Origin: an alpha proteobacterium BAL199
GTDB lineage: Bacteria; Pseudomonadota; Alphaproteobacteria; Thalassobaculales; Thalassobaculaceae
Assembly: GCA_000171835.1 (NCBI GenBank)
Contig: ABHC01000010.1
Location: 62,001-126,000 of the forward strand
Direction: 5' to 3'
DNA: 64,000 nt
This document shows, one piece after another, positions 3,107 through 33,923 of this stretch (position 1 is its first letter; each line of letters opens with the position of its first letter). Both the position numbers and the translations under genes were made by a program. The notes below the pieces were generated by a model. That model did not search any database and had not been told where the DNA came from. It saw only the letters and a program-made list of their open reading frames with translations.

Positions 3107-3575
3107 ATGAACAACCTGCCCCCCGCCGTCATCCCCCCGTTCACGACAATCCCAACCCCTCTGCCGGTCGGCACTCGCGACCGGCTGGCCGGTTTAATTC
3201 CATGCGGCGGCAAAGCGACACTCTACGATCTGTTCGTACTCGACGGCGGGCTTGCGACCGACGTGATGTCGCATTACACCCGAAACATTGCACCAATCGT
3301 GGAGCGCATTTTTGGGCTGCGCGTGTGTGTTTGGCCCCAAATCTCGACTGCTCGTCACAACACCGCCGAGAATACGGACTTCCACAACTGGCACACTGAC
3401 GCGTGGTTCTTTGATCTGCTCTCAGACGACGGCATGACGGTCTGGCTCCCGTTCGACGACGTCGGGACCAAAGCACCGAGCTTGGAGTTCGAATTAGACA
3501 ACCAAATTATCACCCCAGTCCTCAAAGCAGGTCAGTCGTTGGCTTTTGGAATGCACGCCCGACATCGGACACAGC
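3107..3575 (+). pseudogene. Oxygenase-like gene truncated by IS6
   Basis: About 156 codons remain before the IS6 left end cuts the gene at 3576; the frame then runs into the element and stops at 3628. The remnant is clearly homologous to the intact gene at 29471-30106. Shared blocks are AGL-P-GGK-T, RHN-A--TD-H-WHTD--FF, FDDVG--APS-EF and RHRTQ. The HTD and the later RHRT fit an H-x-D...H iron-binding facial triad of the phytanoyl-CoA dioxygenase/cupin-like kind, which is an inference. The cut falls immediately after RHRTQ, so roughly 60 C-terminal residues are lost, including a probable substrate-binding arginine. Its codon usage is visibly less GC-rich than that of its neighbours, which suggests transfer. 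A ribosome site (CGGAG) precedes the ATG. Confidence 0.8.
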
Positions 3576-3592
3576 GGTGTTGTCACGTTAAC
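3576..3592 (+). repeat. IS6 left terminal inverted repeat
   Basis: GGTGTTGTCACGTTAAC. It is the exact reverse complement of 4375-4391, and the match stops at the next base outward on both sides, which fixes the element ends. Confidence 0.93.
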
Positions 3593-3637
3593 GTGCCTGA
3601 GGTTGCGGGTTCAATGATCCGGGCGTAGGCGGTGTCG

Positions 3638-4339
3638 ATGCAAACAGAGAAAATCAGCTACAAGCGCCACCGCTTTCCGCCTCAGATCATTTCTCATGTT
3701 GTCTGGCTCTACGCCCGGTTCAACTTGAGCCTGCGCGAGGTCGAGGAGCTTATGCTGGAACGTGGTGTGGACGTTTCGTATGAGACGATCCGGCGCTGGA
3801 CCGTCAAGTTCGGTCCCCGGATCGCCCACGTTCTGCGGCGACGGCAGCCTCGCCCTGGTGATGTTTGGCATCTGGACGAAGTCGTCGTGAAGATCGCGGG
3901 CCGGTCATACTGGCTGTGGCGCGCCGTCGACCAACACGGTGTCGTTCTTGAGGAAATCTTACAATCGAAGCGAGACAAGCGCGCTGCAAAGCGGCTTTTG
4001 ATCAAGCTGATGAAACGTTGGGGCTTCGTGCCCAAAAGGATCATTACGGACAAACTGCGCTCATATGGGGCCGCCAAGCGCGAGGTCGCGCCTGGCCTTG
4101 ATCATTGGTCACACAAGGGGCTCAATAACCGCGCCGAGAACAGCCACTTGCCCTTCCGAAAACGAGAGCGGGTGATGCAAGGCTTCCGATCACCGGGTGG
4201 ATTACAACGCTTCGTGTCTATGCAATCCGCAACCCGCAATCGTTACTCTGTCCCAGCCCGCCGTCGTTCCGCCCTCACCATTCGCTACCATCGGCTCGAA
4301 GCGTTCGAAGCTTGGAAATCCGCGGCACATGCCGCTTGA
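3638..4339 (+). CDS. IS6-family transposase
   Basis: This DDE transposase of 233 residues catalyses replicative transposition of the surrounding element. The N-terminal third contains an HTH-like segment (FNLSLREVEELMLERG, then SYETIRRW). The catalytic residues appear as D80 in WHLDE, D138 in IITDKLRSYG and E167 in NNRAENSH, with the family's RKRERVMQGF following. It appears full length and intact. I chose the ATG at 3638; a GTG two codons upstream is also possible. The gene occupies almost all the space between the terminal repeats, as is normal for IS6. Confidence 0.95.
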   Translation: MQTEKISYKRHRFPPQIISHVVWLYARFNLSLREVEELMLERGVDVSYETIRRWTVKFGPRIAHVLRRRQPRPGDVWHLDEVVVKIAGRSYWLWRAVDQHGVVLEEILQSKRDKRAAKRLLIKLMKRWGFVPKRIITDKLRSYGAAKREVAPGLDHWSHKGLNNRAENSHLPFRKRERVMQGFRSPGGLQRFVSMQSATRNRYSVPARRRSALTIRYHRLEAFEAWKSAAHAA

Positions 4340-4374
4340 TCAACGACCGGCATGCCAACTTGCTAACTCGACGA

Positions 4375-4391
4375 GTTAACGTGACAACACC
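4375..4391 (-). repeat. IS6 right terminal inverted repeat
   Basis: GTTAACGTGACAACACC, the exact reverse complement of 3576-3592. The truncated gene at 4392-4583 abuts it directly. Confidence 0.93.
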
Positions 4392-6269: not shown

Positions 6270-7411
6270 ATGCGCGTCGGTGATGACGGTTCAGGAGAGT
6301 TGTTCAGCTACGTCGACCTTGAGGCTCGGGTTCGCCGGGACCACCCGCTGCGGGCGATCCGGGAGATTGCGAACGCGGCTCTGGATACGCTGAGCGAGGA
6401 CTTTGCGGCGCTGTACTGTCGGATGGGCCGTCCGTCGATCGCACCAGAGCGGCTGCTTCGGGCGATGCTTCTGCAGGCGTTCTACTCGATCCGCTCGGAA
6501 CGCCAGCTGATGGAGCGGCTGGAATACGACCTTCTGTTCCGCTGGTTCGTCGGGCTCGGTCTGGACGACGCAGTGTGGGACCATTCGACGTTCTCGAAGA
6601 ACCGCGACCGGTTGCTGGCGGGAGAGATCGCCGGTCGGTTCCTGGCGGCGGTGCTGGCTCAGCCGCGGGTGAAGCGGCTGCTGTCCAGCGAGCACTTCTC
6701 GGTCGACGGCACGCTGATCGAGGCGTGGGCCAGCTTGAAGAGCTTCAAGCCGAAGGACCCCGGCGCCCCTCCATCCGCGGGCGATGGCAACGGCGGAGAC
6801 CGCAACGCATCGGTCGACTTCAAGGGCCAGAAGCGCTCAAACGCGACGCACGCCTCGACGACCGATCCCGATGCGCTGCTGTACCGCAAGGGACCGGGGA
6901 TGGAGGCACGACTGTGCTACATCGGCCACGGGCTCATGGAGAACCGTTCGGGCCTGATCGTCGACACCCGGCTGACCCGGGTATCGGGCCACGCCGAGCG
7001 GCTGGCGGCGCTGGAGATGATCGAGCCCTGGGGCGACCGTTCGAGTGCCGTCACCCTCGGCGCCGACAAGGGCTACGATGCCCGCGACTTCGTGATGGAA
7101 CTGCGCGAGGTGAACGTGCGCCCACATCTGGCGCAGAACACCAGCAACCGGCGTTCCGCGATCGACCGCCGCACCACCCGCCATCCGGGCTATGCGGTGA
7201 GCCAGCGCATCCGCAAGCGGATCGAAGGTGAAGCGAGACCGTGAGCGAAGCTTGCGTAAGCTCGCTTCACGGCGGCTGGATCAAGACCGTGGCCGGGATG
7301 CGCAAGACCCGGTTCCGCGGCCGGGAGCGCGTCGACTTGGCCTTCACCTTCGCGGCCGCCGCCTACAACTTGGTGCGGCTGCCCAAGTTGCTGGCCGAGG
7401 TGCAGTCATGA
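6270..7411 (+). pseudogene. Transposase broken by 43-base insertion
   Basis: Codons from ATG 6270 encode a DDE transposase with an N-terminal DUF772-type domain (PLRAIREIANAALD, then RMGRPSIAPERLLRAMLLQ). The catalytic region includes HFSVDGTLIEAW and TLGADKGYDARDF. After RKRIE (codon ending 7226) the frame is destroyed by the palindromic insert at 7228-7270 and stops at 7244. The remaining C-terminal part (GWIKTVAGMRKTRFRG and on to KLLAEVQS) resumes in another frame at 7274 and ends with TGA at 7409-7411. The break falls right at the conserved catalytic glutamate/lysine motif, so the encoded enzyme should be inactive. Confidence 0.88.
7228..7270. repeat. 43-base palindromic insert in transposase
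   Basis: GTGAAGCGAG at 7228-7237 is perfectly complementary to CTCGCTTCAC at 7261-7270, with a 23-base centre that itself contains the partly complementary GAGC and GCTC. It replaces about three codons expected between RIE and GWIK and shifts the frame. It looks like a small palindromic repeat unit, but I found no second copy of its arms in this window. Confidence 0.65.
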
Positions 7412-7752
7412 CCGCGCCGATGGGCTGCCAGTTGATCGGCCGGTGGCGGATCGTTGAAGCCGACATCTGGGATCGCGACTACCTTGACCTGGTCGAGCCG
7501 GCGAAGATGGTCATCGAGGCTGGCGGACACGGCGAGATCGCCTTCGGGGCCATGCAGGCCGGGCTCGACATCGAATACGCCCGCACCCTGGTGTTCTTCA
7601 CCTGGGAGGGCTTCGACGAGATGGACCACGTCCGCGGCACCGGATCCGCCGAACTCCAGGACGACGGCACCATCGAGATCGAGTTCGCCTACCACCTGGG
7701 CGACGAAGCTACCCTCAAAGCCGAACGCGTCACTTCTTCAACAGCCTGCTAG
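7408..7752 (+). CDS. Conserved passenger protein of IS element
   Basis: This 114-residue protein is encoded inside the element. Its ATG overlaps the transposase stop (ATGA), suggesting coupled translation. The sequence GRWRIVEADIWDRDYLDLV is characteristic of a small conserved family of unknown function that I recall mostly as stand-alone hypothetical proteins. It is acidic and rich in beta-strand-like alternation (FFTWEGFDEMD, IEIEFAYHLGDEA). The reading frame continues through the right inverted repeat, and its TAG stop is contributed by the flanking CTAG. The last dozen residues are therefore set by the element end and target site. No catalytic motif is recognisable. Confidence 0.65.
   Translation: MTAPMGCQLIGRWRIVEADIWDRDYLDLVEPAKMVIEAGGHGEIAFGAMQAGLDIEYARTLVFFTWEGFDEMDHVRGTGSAELQDDGTIEIEFAYHLGDEATLKAERVTSSTAC
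7732..7752 (-). repeat. Second element, right repeat plus CTAG
   Basis: ACTTCTTCAACAGCCTG at 7732-7748, exactly complementary to the left repeat, followed by the second CTAG copy at 7749-7752. That CTAG also supplies the stop codons of both the passenger gene and the opposing ParB-like gene. Confidence 0.88.
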
Positions 7753-7994
7753 AATTTCTTCGCCTGCACCCGAATCCCGACGATGGTCTCCTCGCCAAGT
7801 GCCCGGCAGGCTTCAAGCCGGTGCAGGCCCTCGACCAGCACAAAACGCTTGCCGTCGTGGCGGACCTGGATCGGGGCTTTCTGACCTTCTTCGAGGATCG
7901 CCGCGGCGAGGTGCTCGACCGTCTCCGGGTTCAAGGTCGCCTGCCGCTTGGCCGGCACATAGATCTCGGCAATCGGGATCTTCTCGTCCTTCAT
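7749..7994 (-). CDS. Small ParB N-terminal domain protein
   Basis: The 81-residue protein is a single ParB/Srx-type nuclease or NTPase fold. It shows PIAEIYVPAKRQATLNPETV, then the loop GQKAPIQVRHDGKRFVLVEG and the signature LHRLEACRALGEETIVG. Full ParB has extra HTH and dimerisation regions; these are absent, so this is one of the short ParB-like proteins of unclear role. The ATG at 7994 follows AGGTGAG at a suitable distance; an ATG at 8021 is an alternative. The TAG stop lies in the CTAG target of the element. CTAG pre-existed there, so the gene is probably complete. Confidence 0.75.
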   Translation of the reverse strand: MKDEKIPIAEIYVPAKRQATLNPETVEHLAAAILEEGQKAPIQVRHDGKRFVLVEGLHRLEACRALGEETIVGIRVQAKKF

Positions 7995-27463: not shown

Positions 27464-28732
27464 TCACCCCTCGGCTTGCGGTCCATCCGGCTGGCGGGAA
27501 TAGATCGACGCGGTGACCACCAGAACGGCGATCACGGTCAGGAACACCAGGCGGAACCCGGTTTCCGGCGCACCGCCGGCCACCCGGACCATGTCAATGA
27601 CGGCACCGGTCCCGGTCTGCAGCAGGAACACGCCGGTCAGTCCCATCAGGTTGATGCAGGCAATGGCCCGCCCGGCGCGCTGCCGCGGTACGAACTTGCG
27701 GGCATGAGCCGCCAGCACAACAAACAGCGGTGCGGCGCAACTGAACACGAACAGCAGCGCGATGGCGGCGAGCATCGGCACCGTCGGCCAGATCACCAGC
27801 ACGCTGAGGCAAACAACCTCTAGGGCGACGCCCCCCAGGATCAGGTGCTTGCGGGACGGCGCTAACCGGTCCAGCACACCATAGGCGTAGGTCCCGAGAT
27901 GCAAAGCGACGACCAGCACCAACAGGGCCACCGAAGCCTCGGCATGGCTAAGTTGCTGGACTTGCGCGAAATACGGCCCGGCCCACAACCCGCCGATGGT
28001 CATGAACGGCGCGGTGAAGCAGATCCCCATGATGAAGATCCGGCGCAATTCCGGCATCCGCATCACCTCGACCAGGCCCCGCACCGACTGGATCAGAGTC
28101 TCCTGCGGACTCGGCTCGGCCGCACCGGAGTCCGTTGGTCCATCGCGAACCAGTAACCGGATTGCCACCATGACCAGGCCGGTCATCGCCGCCAGGGCCA
28201 GGAAAGTGCCCTCGATCCCATAGTGTTCAAGGGCCAGAGCCAGCGGGGTCGTGGACAGCATTCCGCCGATTCCGCCAGCCACCCCCACCAGCGTTCCAGT
28301 CGCCTGCGCCACCCGGTCCGGCGGCGCCCAGCCCATCGCGATCAAGTAGACCGCCGTGATCACCCCTCCGTGGCCGACACCGATCGCCAGCCGCCCGGCG
28401 AGCAGCCCCCAGGTACTACCGGCCAACGCGAACACCACGATTCCCACCAGCGAGACCAATCCCATCACCAGCAGGGTCCGGGTCGCGCCGATGCGGTCGA
28501 ACAGGATACCGGTCGGCAGTTGCGCGGCAGCCGATGCAAAGAACATCGCCCCCATCACCGTGCCGATGTCGGTCGGCGACAAGCCGCGATGGGTTCCCAG
28601 GTAGCTGGCGAGCACGCCGCCCGACGACCGGTTTACCTGTACGAAGATGAAGAAGCAGCCGAGAACCACCAGCATGCGGCGGAGCGAGCGAAGCCGTTCG
28701 GCCCGCTCCGTGTCGGTCAAGGAATCACTCAT
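27464..28732 (-). CDS. MFS transporter
   Basis: The 422-residue inner-membrane protein has about 12 predicted transmembrane helices in the major facilitator layout. The motif A region is GILFDRIGATRTLL between helices 2 and 3 and is followed by GRLAIGVGHGGVITA. The substrate is unknown. The start is the ATG at 28732, which overlaps the maiA stop by 4 bases, so it is coupled to maiA. Because maiA isomerises maleylacetoacetate from tyrosine breakdown, an aromatic or organic acid substrate is possible but not shown. Confidence 0.85.
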   Translation of the reverse strand: MSDSLTDTERAERLRSLRRMLVVLGCFFIFVQVNRSSGGVLASYLGTHRGLSPTDIGTVMGAMFFASAAAQLPTGILFDRIGATRTLLVMGLVSLVGIVVFALAGSTWGLLAGRLAIGVGHGGVITAVYLIAMGWAPPDRVAQATGTLVGVAGGIGGMLSTTPLALALEHYGIEGTFLALAAMTGLVMVAIRLLVRDGPTDSGAAEPSPQETLIQSVRGLVEVMRMPELRRIFIMGICFTAPFMTIGGLWAGPYFAQVQQLSHAEASVALLVLVVALHLGTYAYGVLDRLAPSRKHLILGGVALEVVCLSVLVIWPTVPMLAAIALLFVFSCAAPLFVVLAAHARKFVPRQRAGRAIACINLMGLTGVFLLQTGTGAVIDMVRVAGGAPETGFRLVFLTVIAVLVVTASIYSRQPDGPQAEG

Positions 28733-29376
28733 TCGCTGTCGGGCTGCCGGGACGGATGAGCGGTCTGGAAAGCCTCCAATTCGCCGCACGCCTCGGCAAT
28801 GCGCAGGATCGTCGGATAGGGTGCAAGATCGAGAGCATGGCGCGCGCTGTTGAACACCTGCGGCACCAGGCAGATATCAGCCAGGCCTGGACTGTCACCG
28901 TGGCAAAACCGTCCGGTCCGCGAATCGCCCGCCAGCATCGCCTCAAGAGCCATGAATCCCTCGACAATCCAGTGATTGTACCAGGCGATCATTGCCTCCT
29001 GGGTGCAGCCCAGCGGACCCTGAATGTATTTCAGGACCCGCAAGTTGTTCAGCGGATGGATGTCGCAGGCAACAGCGGCCGCCAGCGCCCGGACCCGGGC
29101 TCGATCGACAGGTCCATCCGGCAACAGGCGCGGGGTCTCCGGATACGCCTCGTCCAGATACTCCAGGATCGCCGGCGATTGCGTCAGCATGGCATCGCCA
29201 TCGGCCAGCGCCGGCACCATGCCCTGGGGATTCAAGGCAAGAAACGCGGCCGCCCGTTGCTCGCCCTTGCGCAGGTGCACCGACACCTGATCATGCTCGA
29301 GTCCCTTCAGGTTCAACGCGATCCGCACTCGGTAGGCTGCGGACGATCGAAAATAGCCATGCAGCACACGGGTCAT
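28729..29376 (-). CDS. maiA: Maleylacetoacetate isomerase (GST zeta)
   Basis: This 215-residue glutathione transferase of the zeta class converts maleylacetoacetate to fumarylacetoacetate in tyrosine catabolism. The N-terminal signature is YFRSSAAYRVRIALNLKGL, with the catalytic Ser pair, and then LNPQGMVPALADGD and LTQSPAILEYLDE. The C-terminal helical domain ends with PTILRIAEAC. It supplies the step between homogentisate dioxygenase (33920-35071) and fumarylacetoacetate hydrolase (32943-33923), yet lies about 3.6 kb away in a separate unit with an MFS transporter. Confidence 0.93.
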   Translation of the reverse strand: MTRVLHGYFRSSAAYRVRIALNLKGLEHDQVSVHLRKGEQRAAAFLALNPQGMVPALADGDAMLTQSPAILEYLDEAYPETPRLLPDGPVDRARVRALAAAVACDIHPLNNLRVLKYIQGPLGCTQEAMIAWYNHWIVEGFMALEAMLAGDSRTGRFCHGDSPGLADICLVPQVFNSARHALDLAPYPTILRIAEACGELEAFQTAHPSRQPDSE

Positions 29377-29470
29377 GGGGTTCCCTCAGCCAGTCGTCAT
29401 CGTGGTTTCGGCCAATGCCAATGACACTACAATAAGTGCAACGACTGCGCTCGCGTGCAGCAATCCGAGA

Positions 29471-30106
29471 TCACGGCTTCAATCCAGGCGACTCGATACG
29501 GGCTGAATGAAGTTCCGTACCATCCCGGGAGACCACCATGCGGCGCCCGGCCGGCCCCTCCTCGACCATGACTTGAAGTACAGAGAGCACATCTGCGGAC
29601 CGGGCCGAGACCGGCATGCACCGGAACTCGACCGAGATCCGCTCACCGTTCAGACACTGTGTGCGGTGACGCACGTTCGACAGGAACATCAGAGCGGTCG
29701 CCGCCCTCACGCAGGCGACGTGTGCCTGGTCGTCCACATCGAACTCAATCGACGGCGCCGTCTCACCGACATCGTCAAAGGTGACCCAGAACGTCAGCCC
29801 GTGTCCTGCCGGCTGAAAGAAACTCCGGTCGGTGTGCCAGGGATGCAAGTCGGTCTGCACTGCCGAGTTGTGACGGACGGTACCCAGAGGCAGAATCAGC
29901 GCGGCTCGCTCGCCAAGCGCGGCGTCGGCGTGGGTTGACAGCTTCTCGGCAAACCCGAGAAGCAACTGGTACCCTGTCTTCGGACGCTCCTCGCACAGTT
30001 TGGCAAAGGTGATCTTGCCGCCCGGCGGCACCAACCCGGCGATCGACGACCGCACCTCGGGCGTCGCGCGTGGGAACGGCAACTCGATATACGGGGGACG
30101 CATCAT
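29471..30106 (-). CDS. Putative Fe/2-oxoglutarate oxygenase, intact copy
   Basis: This 211-residue protein is the intact paralogue of the truncated gene at 3107-3575. Both share TD-H-WHTD--FF, FDDVG--APS-EF and RHRTQ. The HTD and RHRT histidines would make an H-x-D...H iron site, and an Arg about 12 residues after the distal His (SVEFR) is placed where phytanoyl-CoA-type oxygenases bind 2-oxoglutarate. No family name comes to mind; the oxygenase fold is an inference from motif spacing. The protein is cytoplasmic, with no signal. The gene lies next to a phytanoyl-CoA dioxygenase family gene on the same strand, 155 bases away. Confidence 0.65.
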   Translation of the reverse strand: MMRPPYIELPFPRATPEVRSSIAGLVPPGGKITFAKLCEERPKTGYQLLLGFAEKLSTHADAALGERAALILPLGTVRHNSAVQTDLHPWHTDRSFFQPAGHGLTFWVTFDDVGETAPSIEFDVDDQAHVACVRAATALMFLSNVRHRTQCLNGERISVEFRCMPVSARSADVLSVLQVMVEEGPAGRRMVVSRDGTELHSARIESPGLKP

Positions 30107-30261
30107 CCAGCCGAAAGGTTACGAGATGAGAGAAAGGGCGCAGTGCAGCGTCTGGGCCGTCGCCTATCACATGAACATTCTAACCTTGAGATTCTGAGCC
30201 TAGCCAATCGCTTCATACAAAGCCCCTATGGTCTTGCCGCGATTTGGAGGCATCCGCTCGA

Positions 30262-31077
30262 TCAGCCGCGCACCACCGGAAAGTCCTCGCCGCGCAGCCT
30301 GTCGCCATGCGACAGGCGAACATCGGGAAACGGTGGCGAGACCTCGCCCTGGCGCTGGACGAACACCACGTCGTCTCCGCAATAGCGCGCCGCGAACGCA
30401 CGGCGCCTGGCGCCGCTCTGCAGATTGCCGGGGGCTCCGTGCACCGTCAGGAATGAGAATGCAATCGCATCGCCCGGCTGCAGATCCCAGCCGAGGATCT
30501 GGAAATCGCCGCGCTTGGCGTCGATGTCGGGCAGCGGCTCCAGATCGGTCTCGGCCCGATCGTAGGCCTGGCCCTTGAACTTGGTCGGCATGAAGCGCTT
30601 GCCCCAGGCGTGCGAGCCGGCGACGAACTCCACACAGGTCGCCCGCGGCACCGGGTCGAGCGGGATCCACAGCGACACAGTTTGGCGGCCCTCCACGCAA
30701 TAGTATGGCAGATCGTGGTGCCAGGGCGTGCGTTCCTCGGTCGACGGCTCCTTCACCAACACGTGCTCGTGAAACAGCACGACCGATCGCGAGGCCATCA
30801 ACTCAGCCGCCAAATCGGGCGCCGGCGAGTTCTTCAGGAAATCCTCGTACTCCGGGATGCGCCGCCAATTGCAGTAGTCACCGAAGAAATGCCCCGGCTT
30901 GCCCTCGGTGGTGTAGCCCTTGGCGTAGGGGCCAGGGTCGGCCAAGTTGCGGTCGACTCCGTCGCGCAGGGCAACGATCCACTCCGGCGCGAACACGCCG
31001 CGCAGTGCTACCGCCCCATCACGCCGGAACGCTTCGACTGTTGCCGGATCCAGCCCGACCCGCTCCTGCACCGCCAT
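30262..31077 (-). CDS. Phytanoyl-CoA dioxygenase family protein
   Basis: This 271-residue Fe(II)/2-oxoglutarate oxygenase is of the PhyH superfamily. The iron site is HHD in TPWHHDLPYYCVEG and the distal His in TVHGAPGN, with a plausible 2-oxoglutarate Arg in ARRRAFAARY. Other typical parts are WIPLDPVPRATCVEFVAGSH and LQPGDAIAFSF. The substrate is unknown; members hydroxylate acyl chains, amino acids or natural products. I chose the ATG at 31077, with GGAG six bases upstream; ATG 31089 is an alternative. The gene diverges from the glycosyltransferase gene across 176 bases. Confidence 0.85.
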   Translation of the reverse strand: MAVQERVGLDPATVEAFRRDGAVALRGVFAPEWIVALRDGVDRNLADPGPYAKGYTTEGKPGHFFGDYCNWRRIPEYEDFLKNSPAPDLAAELMASRSVVLFHEHVLVKEPSTEERTPWHHDLPYYCVEGRQTVSLWIPLDPVPRATCVEFVAGSHAWGKRFMPTKFKGQAYDRAETDLEPLPDIDAKRGDFQILGWDLQPGDAIAFSFLTVHGAPGNLQSGARRRAFAARYCGDDVVFVQRQGEVSPPFPDVRLSHGDRLRGEDFPVVRG

Positions 31078-31253
31078 GTCCGTCTCCATTCGCCGCTTCC
31101 GCGCGATGGTAGCCGGGTGCCACCGCAGCGTCATCCGCCTCAACGCCAGCAATCGAGTCGGGCGTTCGTCGAGCATCGGCAAGCGGCGAACTCGCGGCAG
31201 CGACCCATTCGCCCTCTGTAGCGATCAATCCCGACGTGCTAGACCGCGCAGCC

Positions 31254-32918
31254 ATGCCGGCAAACGCAGCGATCAAGTTTCATCCGGGCGCGCACACGGT
31301 CGATTCCGGTCCGATCATCGGACGGGTGCGCGCCGGCTCGGGCTTCGTCAACGGCTTTCTGGAACACGCAGACACCGAGTCGTTCTACGTGTACGCCGAG
31401 TCGGACGCCCACGCGACCGAGTTCCGGGACCTGGCCGCCGCGCGCGATCCGAAGCGCCGGCCGGTCCACTCCCTGTCGGCGTCCGAGTTGGCGGTTGCCG
31501 GCACGCTGATGCTGCCGGATCCGTCACTCGGCCGGGCGGCATTAGCCGACCGGCGGGACGACCCGCGGCGCTACAGCCTGTGCGGCGTCACTCACACCTT
31601 GTCCAGCAAACCGGCGATCCGCGCGCTGAGCGAGTTCCTGACAACGCCCGTTCAGCCCTGGGACGCGCTCGTTTGCACGTCGCATGCGGCAAGGGCGGTG
31701 GTGGTCAGGGTGATCGAGGCACAAGCCGAACATTTGGCGTCACGTTCCGGTGTTGTCCCACCGGATAGCCCCGTTCGGTTGCCTGTCATCCCGCTCGGCG
31801 TTGACACCCGCACCTACGCTGCCGATCCGGCTGCCCGGGCCGGGCTGCGGCGAACGATCGGCGCCTCGGACGACGACATCATTCTCCTGACGCTTGGGCG
31901 CCTCACACCGGTGAACAAGGCACACCCCGTGCCGATGCTGTTCGCTGCAGAACGCGCGGCGGCGGCCTGCGCCAGCCGCGGCATCCGGCTGCATCACGTC
32001 TTCGTCGGACAACGGACCAGCGATGCGGTGCTCGAGTCGTACCGGACGGCTGCCCAGGCGTTCACCGACAAGGCGAGCGTTCACCTGCTGGACGGCCACA
32101 ACGACACCGTCGTGCACGAAGCCTGGCATGGTGCCGACGTGTTCTTCACGCTGTCCGACAACCTGCAGGAGACCTTCGGCCTGACGCCGATCGAAGCGAT
32201 GGCGGCCGGGCTGCCCAGCGTCGTGAGCGATTGGAACGGCTATCGCGATACCGTGGTCGAGGGCGAGACCGGCTTCCGGATACCGACCTTGATGCCGGCT
32301 CCGGGCGATGGCCGGGATCTGGCCGAACGCTTCCGCAGCGGCGAGGATGACTTTTCGATGTTCCACGCCCGGGCATGCATGGCAACGGCCTGCGACGTTG
32401 ACCGGGCGGCGGTTTGCCTGGAGGCACTCGCCCTGGACCCGGATCTGCGGAGCCGCATGGGTGCCGCCGCCCGCCGACGCGCACGGACCGTCTACGACTG
32501 GCGGCTGATCGTGGGCGCCTATCAGGACCTATGGGCTGAACTGGCGGAGATCCGAACTGCGTCCCCGATCAGGCATCCGTTCCAATCGCCGCCCGAGGTC
32601 AAGCCCATGGTTCCCGACCCGTTCGATGCGTTCCAAGGGCACCCGACCATCGTGCTGCACGGCAGGATGACGGTTCGACCGCGCCATCGCGACGTGCTTC
32701 AGTCAGTCGCACGCCTGACCGGCAACACCCTTAGCACCGTCGCACTGGACCTCTCGGTGCCGAGGGAGCAGTTCAACACCGTCCTGGGAACGATCGCCAA
32801 GGGAACGAACACGGTCGACGAGATCGAGCGCGCGCACCTCGATTGCGACGGCCCGATTCTGCGCCGGTTCCTGCTATGGCTCTGCAAGTTCGACGTGATC
32901 TCAATCAACGACGACTGA
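31254..32918 (+). CDS. GT4-type glycosyltransferase, extended C-terminus
   Basis: This 554-residue protein has a GT-B glycosyltransferase core. The N-terminal Rossmann half covers about 1-190. The donor-binding half contains LTLGRLTPVNKAHP and the E-x7-E signature in QETFGLTPIEAMAAGLPSV, then DTVVEGETGFRIP. The sugar and acceptor are unknown. After about residue 455 comes an extra segment of about 100 residues whose end, GTNTVDEIERAHLD followed by ILRRFLLWLCKFDVI, resembles a winged-helix or PqqD-like fold, unusual for this class. I used ATG 31254; a GTG six codons earlier is possible. It converges on the tyrosine operon. Confidence 0.8.
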   Translation: MPANAAIKFHPGAHTVDSGPIIGRVRAGSGFVNGFLEHADTESFYVYAESDAHATEFRDLAAARDPKRRPVHSLSASELAVAGTLMLPDPSLGRAALADRRDDPRRYSLCGVTHTLSSKPAIRALSEFLTTPVQPWDALVCTSHAARAVVVRVIEAQAEHLASRSGVVPPDSPVRLPVIPLGVDTRTYAADPAARAGLRRTIGASDDDIILLTLGRLTPVNKAHPVPMLFAAERAAAACASRGIRLHHVFVGQRTSDAVLESYRTAAQAFTDKASVHLLDGHNDTVVHEAWHGADVFFTLSDNLQETFGLTPIEAMAAGLPSVVSDWNGYRDTVVEGETGFRIPTLMPAPGDGRDLAERFRSGEDDFSMFHARACMATACDVDRAAVCLEALALDPDLRSRMGAAARRRARTVYDWRLIVGAYQDLWAELAEIRTASPIRHPFQSPPEVKPMVPDPFDAFQGHPTIVLHGRMTVRPRHRDVLQSVARLTGNTLSTVALDLSVPREQFNTVLGTIAKGTNTVDEIERAHLDCDGPILRRFLLWLCKFDVISINDD

Positions 32919-32942
32919 GACCATTAGTAATCCGACCGAGCC

Positions 32943-33923
32943 TCACACCCGCTCCACCACCTGATCGACCGCACCGAACACGCTTGCGCCGTCCCTGCCC
33001 GTCACCTCGATGCGGATGCGGTCGCCGAAGCTCATGAACGGGGTCGTCGGCTTGCCGCCGGCGATGGTCTCGATCATGCGGATCTCGGCGATGCATGAGT
33101 AGCCATGCTTCTGGTCGGAGTTCGATACCGTGCCGGAGCCGATGATTGTGCCGGCGTTCAGCGGCCGGGTCTTGGCTGCGTGGGCGATCAGGGTCGGGAA
33201 GTCGAAGGTCATGTCGAGCCCGGCGTCGGTCCAACCGACCTTGGCGCCGTTCAGCGAGCAGGTCACCGGGAGGTGCAGCTTGCCGCCATCCCAGGCGTCG
33301 CCGAGCGCGTCCGGCGTCACCGCGACCGGCCCGAAGGCGGTCGGCGGCTTGCCGTGCACGAACCCGAACCCCTTGGCGAGTTCCGCTGGGATCAGGCCGC
33401 GCAGCGAGACGTCATTGACCAGCATGACCAGCGTGATGTGCTTGCCCGCCTCGGCGACCGACACGCCCATCGGCACGTCATCGGTTACGACCGCGATCTC
33501 GGCCTCGAAGTCGATGCCCCAGGCCTCGTCCTTGGCCCGGATCGCCTCGGTCGGCGCCAGGAAGCCGTCGGAGCCGCCCTGGTACATCAGCGGGTCGGAC
33601 CAGAAGCTCTCCGGCAACGCCGCCCCGCGCGCCTTGCGGACCAGTTCGACGTGGTTCACGTAGGCTGAGCCGTCGAGCCACTGGTAGGCGCGCGGCAGCG
33701 GTGAGGCGAGTTGCGCCACGTCGAGCGGGAACGCCTCCTTGGCGGCACCGGCTTCCAGCCGATCGCTAAGCGCACGCAACCGCGGCTCCATATGCGACCA
33801 GTCGTCGAGCGCCTCCTGCAGGGTGTGCGCCACCCCGTGGGTGGTGACGGCGCGGCTAAGGTCGGACGACACCACGATCAGGGTGCCGTCGCGCCCGCCT
33901 TTCTTCAGCGAGGCCAGCTTCAT
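32943..33923 (-). CDS. fahA: Fumarylacetoacetate hydrolase
   Basis: This enzyme cleaves fumarylacetoacetate to fumarate and acetoacetate, the last step of tyrosine catabolism. It has 326 residues, with the FAH-fold metal ligands in GIDFEAEIAVV, then NDVSLRGLIP and FGFVHGKPPTAFGP. The final GTIIGSGTVSN leads to GDRIRIEV. The shorter bacterial FAH-type length suits this operon-encoded form. The ATG at 33923 overlaps the hmgA stop by 4 bases. Together with hppD and hmgA it forms one tightly coupled operon. The longer upstream open frame here is antisense-like noise. Confidence 0.93.
   Translation of the reverse strand: MKLASLKKGGRDGTLIVVSSDLSRAVTTHGVAHTLQEALDDWSHMEPRLRALSDRLEAGAAKEAFPLDVAQLASPLPRAYQWLDGSAYVNHVELVRKARGAALPESFWSDPLMYQGGSDGFLAPTEAIRAKDEAWGIDFEAEIAVVTDDVPMGVSVAEAGKHITLVMLVNDVSLRGLIPAELAKGFGFVHGKPPTAFGPVAVTPDALGDAWDGGKLHLPVTCSLNGAKVGWTDAGLDMTFDFPTLIAHAAKTRPLNAGTIIGSGTVSNSDQKHGYSCIAEIRMIETIAGGKPTTPFMSFGDRIRIEVTGRDGASVFGAVDQVVERV

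Follow-up and report, generated by a model that had tools for sequence, protein, structure and literature searches.

The question raised by the 64,000-nucleotide stretch of DNA analysed here (the window; contig ABHC01000010.1 of the alphaproteobacterium BAL199) is what the product of the gene at 29471-30106 does, and whether this gene forms a pathway together with the genes adjoining it. A first-pass annotation had guessed at an Fe(II)/2-oxoglutarate (2OG) oxygenase from a two-member family, with one copy intact and the other dead, and had placed the intact copy, together with the PhyH gene beside it and a glycosyltransferase, in a possible small natural-product or glycan-modification locus. 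The features of this neighbourhood are:

29471..30106, minus strand: intact gene for a short PhyH-type 2OG oxygenase of 211 aa, with putative Fe ligands H91, D93 and H147 and putative 2OG arginine R156
29388..30253, no strand: segment of 866 bp with the oxygenase gene as its sole content, absent from two congeners
28729..29376, minus strand: maleylacetoacetate isomerase-like (GST fold) gene, maiA, at the other flank of the insert
30262..31092, minus strand: adjoining PhyH-domain gene, found beside maiA in congeners and hence core, outside the insert
31236..32918, plus strand: GT4 glycosyltransferase gene, variable and separate, without synteny in congeners

The AlphaFold model of the 211-aa protein, built on a five-sequence alignment, is a double-stranded β-helix (pLDDT 88.8, pTM 0.88), which is the jelly-roll that the first-pass annotation had proposed to look for by structure prediction, and its best matches are PhyH-type oxygenases. 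The top PDB match in Foldseek is SnoN (E 4e-7), among 186 PDB matches at E ≤ 1e-3. VIA-align gives SnoN a Z of 16.4 with an rmsd of 2.5 Å over 172 aa, and the remaining matches listed are nearly all Fe/2OG oxygenases, one exception being 8fni, a trypanosome RNA-editing subunit. A profile of the short and long forms of the family matches PtlH (E 3.7e-7). Against the Pfam PhyH profile (PF05721) the protein scores 15.7 bits, below the gathering score of 22, with the paralogues L002 and L003 at 22.1 and 22.2 bits (E 2e-4) just above the same cut-off, and an NCBIfam search of the short proteins returned zero matches.

The residues that would be needed for catalysis are conserved. In 11 full-length sequences the invariant positions (L006 numbering) are W95, H96, D98, F101, W112, G119, F181, H187, T189, R198, E202 and R204, the key ones of which correspond by alignment to H91, D93, H147, R156, E160 and R162 of the 29471-30106 protein; the H-x-D...H facial triad is thus invariant in the 11 relatives, and it is present in the five short forms as well. 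R156 aligns with the invariant R198 of L006. The product most likely binds Fe(II) via H91, D93 and H147 and the 5-carboxylate of 2OG via R156. The predicted fold, the invariant His-x-Asp...His...Arg pattern and the PhyH and PtlH profile matches together bear out the original guess of an Fe(II)/2OG oxygenase, including the conservation of its His/Asp/His residues.

What sets the protein apart from its longer cousins is what it lacks. The model of a long cousin carries two helices (136-149 and 155-162) between two core strands and matches PhyH-type enzymes, namely human PhyH (2a1x, Z 16.3), EctD and PtlH; by alignment, this two-helix lid of roughly 40-50 residues is missing from all five short forms. 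The distance from the distal His to the Arg is 9 residues in the 29471-30106 protein and 11 in the long cousin. The PF05721 enzymes EctD and human PhyH show the same pattern of Fe ligands and 2OG arginine as the short protein. In EctD the Fe ligands are H146, D148 and H248, and R259 serves 2OG (PMC2871039), with the Arg 11 residues after the distal His. The lid is present in these enzymes, whereas the short protein has neither the lid nor the EctD signature motif. Other known enzymes resemble it in part. The nogalamycin epimerase SnoN, the best fold match, and the carbocyclase SnoK have the PhyH-type fold in common with it, but the identity is 15-17% and the neighbourhood of 29471-30106 gives no sign of a nogalamycin-type pathway. 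The 1-deoxypentalenic acid 11-β hydroxylase PtlH, its best PDB sequence-profile match, differs in being longer, in the insert that separates its Asp strand from its distal His strand, and in its terpene substrate. The orthosomycin oxygenases AviO1, EvdO2 and HygX, which have been linked to oligosaccharide orthoester formation (PMC8234114), are likewise short and PhyH-type (AviO1 chain 221 aa, Z 15.3), although they are only 14-16% identical to the 29471-30106 protein and belong to antibiotic clusters. The gene is a small, hitherto unnamed member of the well-known Fe(II)/2OG oxygenase class. Since its copies stand singly amid ordinary housekeeping genes at scattered places in the genome, it represents one enzyme and not a new gene cluster; the fold itself is ordinary, and the short clade is new and narrow.

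The family proved larger than the two members first proposed. Sequence searches, from which all paralogue counts given here derive, found four short copies in the organism's own genome (two of them intact, a third interrupted by a TAA stop and the fourth truncated by an insertion sequence), a fifth short member in Thalassobaculum fulvum, and at least 8 longer cousins of about 240-300 aa from the same genome and family. The other three copies are 52% (C46:54521), 39% (C41:47131) and 36% (window 3107) identical to the 29471-30106 protein, the own-genome matches besides itself having E values of 2e-71, 2e-28 and 2e-26. In the C41 copy, TAA follows SIEFR where other copies have Cys, and recognisable sequence continues past the stop. 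Among 385 genomes of the class, with up to 8 candidates scored per genome, and 398 genomes of the phylum, matches under the thresholds used came from the organism's own genome only; tblastn of plasmid and phage collections gave no match, nor did viral contigs, and a literature search for this short oxygenase family in Thalassobaculum found nothing. One match in a metagenome-assembled genome (L015) was rejected as spurious, as by-eye inspection indicated that past its WHTD-like motif the stretch resembles a different enzyme. On contig C60 (L036 7688-9727), two long-form oxygenase paralogues stand in tandem after a sulfatase-like gene.

The truncated copy lies in the window itself, beside the element that cut it:

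3107..3575, plus strand: second short oxygenase copy, ending after RHRTQ, without the 2OG arginine and the C-terminal strands
3576..4391, plus strand: IS element of 816 bp, DDE_Tnp_IS240 / IS6 type, transposase at 3632-4339

The relationship between the two window copies, recognised initially from shared blocks (WHTD..FF, FDDVG..APS.EF and RHRTQ), holds in BLASTP at 36% identity over 148 aa (E 1e-30), and so does the distinction between an intact gene and a dead one, the 3107 copy being cut by the IS element at base 3576. The element has perfect 17-bp terminal inverted repeats, yet the bases flanking it (gacacagc / ctcccagg) show no target-site duplication, and the 3' part of the 3107 gene is absent from its far side; a deletion linked and adjacent to the IS element is therefore likely at this copy. 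An identical 816-bp IS copy occurs on contig C57 (L042 5901-6716), where a further divergent PhyH-like gene (7169-7981) lies about 450 bp away.

That two of the four copies are broken, and that the lid is absent, could be taken to mean that the 29471-30106 product is a degenerate or regulatory version of the 2OG-oxygenase fold without catalysis. This is very unlikely, since each of the three full-length members retains every Fe ligand as well as the 2OG arginine, and the copies have been under purifying selection: between the 29471-30106 and C46 copies dN/dS is approximately 0.41/2.0, i.e. about 0.2 (Nei-Gojobori), with dS close to saturation, and both genes are therefore real and constrained.

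The proposal of a single glycan or natural-product modification locus, comprising 29471-30106 with the PhyH and GT4 genes, draws on the adjacency of the three and on the fact that congeners carry genes of similar types (FkbM methyltransferase, carbamoyltransferase, GT4) at the two variable spots. Synteny largely refutes it, and it is very unlikely. In T. fulvum (G001) and a second congener (G002), maiA and PhyH, whose proteins are 83-87% identical to those of the window, are direct neighbours without the short gene (74 and 84 bp apart, the gap sequence unaligned). Relatives of the GT4 gene at about 35-48% occur in many genomes, none of them at the same place, and the other short copies have unrelated neighbours. 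The C46 copy, also inserted singly, lies within about 1.1 kb adjoining phaR, where G002 has 45 bp and T. fulvum an FkbM methyltransferase; the C41 copy has an O-antigen-type Wzt ABC transporter and a carbamoyltransferase nearby. A comparison across genomes thus found no recurring set of neighbours of the kind expected of a natural-product or glycan cluster. Because the copies sit among differing neighbours and none is present beside maiA-PhyH in the congeners, the short oxygenase gene has no constant partner.

Comparison of three species of the genus favours, by parsimony, insertion of the single gene 29471-30106 rather than loss elsewhere, given that the gap is short in both congeners, and the gene was presumably acquired laterally; its GC3 of 0.77, however, is only slightly below that of most of its neighbours (0.74-0.89). 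A search for shared ends or repeats flanking the copies found none, and hence no mobility mechanism was identified; no promoter or terminator consensus was found within the 866-bp insert. Between maiA and PhyH, an outgroup genus (G005) has a lumazine synthase gene, with an FMN riboswitch upstream of it (L085 2842-3554; Rfam RF00050, 114.9 bits). The stretch from PhyH to fumarylacetoacetase (window 31139-32950) differs in every congener examined, with GT4 in the window, methyltransferase and carbamoyltransferase sequence in G002 (L084) and other genes in T. fulvum (L083). In G002, the segment L084 6281-6386, which lies downstream of the carbamoyltransferase sequence, repeats window 32948-33053 (the end of the fumarylacetoacetase gene, 86%), which suggests a duplication at an insertion edge.

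The best explanation, held with a probability of roughly 0.85, is that 29471-30106 encodes a lidless PhyH-type Fe(II)/2OG oxygenase, a solitary accessory gene between core genes whose substrate is probably a small molecule or a glycan. The predicted reaction is an O2- and 2OG-dependent hydroxylation (or, as with SnoN, epimerisation) of a small molecule or an exposed sugar, and the short open mouth left by the missing lid may suit a bulky or polymer-bound substrate; the gene is one of four paralogues at scattered sites, of which two are decayed. A glycan is weakly preferred as the substrate by analogy, because the short relatives AviO1 and EvdO2 act on carbohydrate and because of the kinds of gene present at the corresponding spots. 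A more speculative and rather unlikely extension is that lineage-restricted lidless 2OG oxygenases move as single-gene cassettes into intergenic spots shared with FkbM, carbamoyltransferases and GT4, acting as dispersed, fast-turnover modifiers of surface glycans.

For the region, this corrects the earlier reading in that the neighbours are not one pathway and the oxygenase gene stands alone as an accessory insertion. With its small PhyH-type scaffold and few close relatives, the short clade lends itself to probing the role of the PhyH lid. Should the sharing of spots with methyl-, carbamoyl- and glycosyltransferases turn out to be general, it would show how glycan-modifying genes turn over singly.
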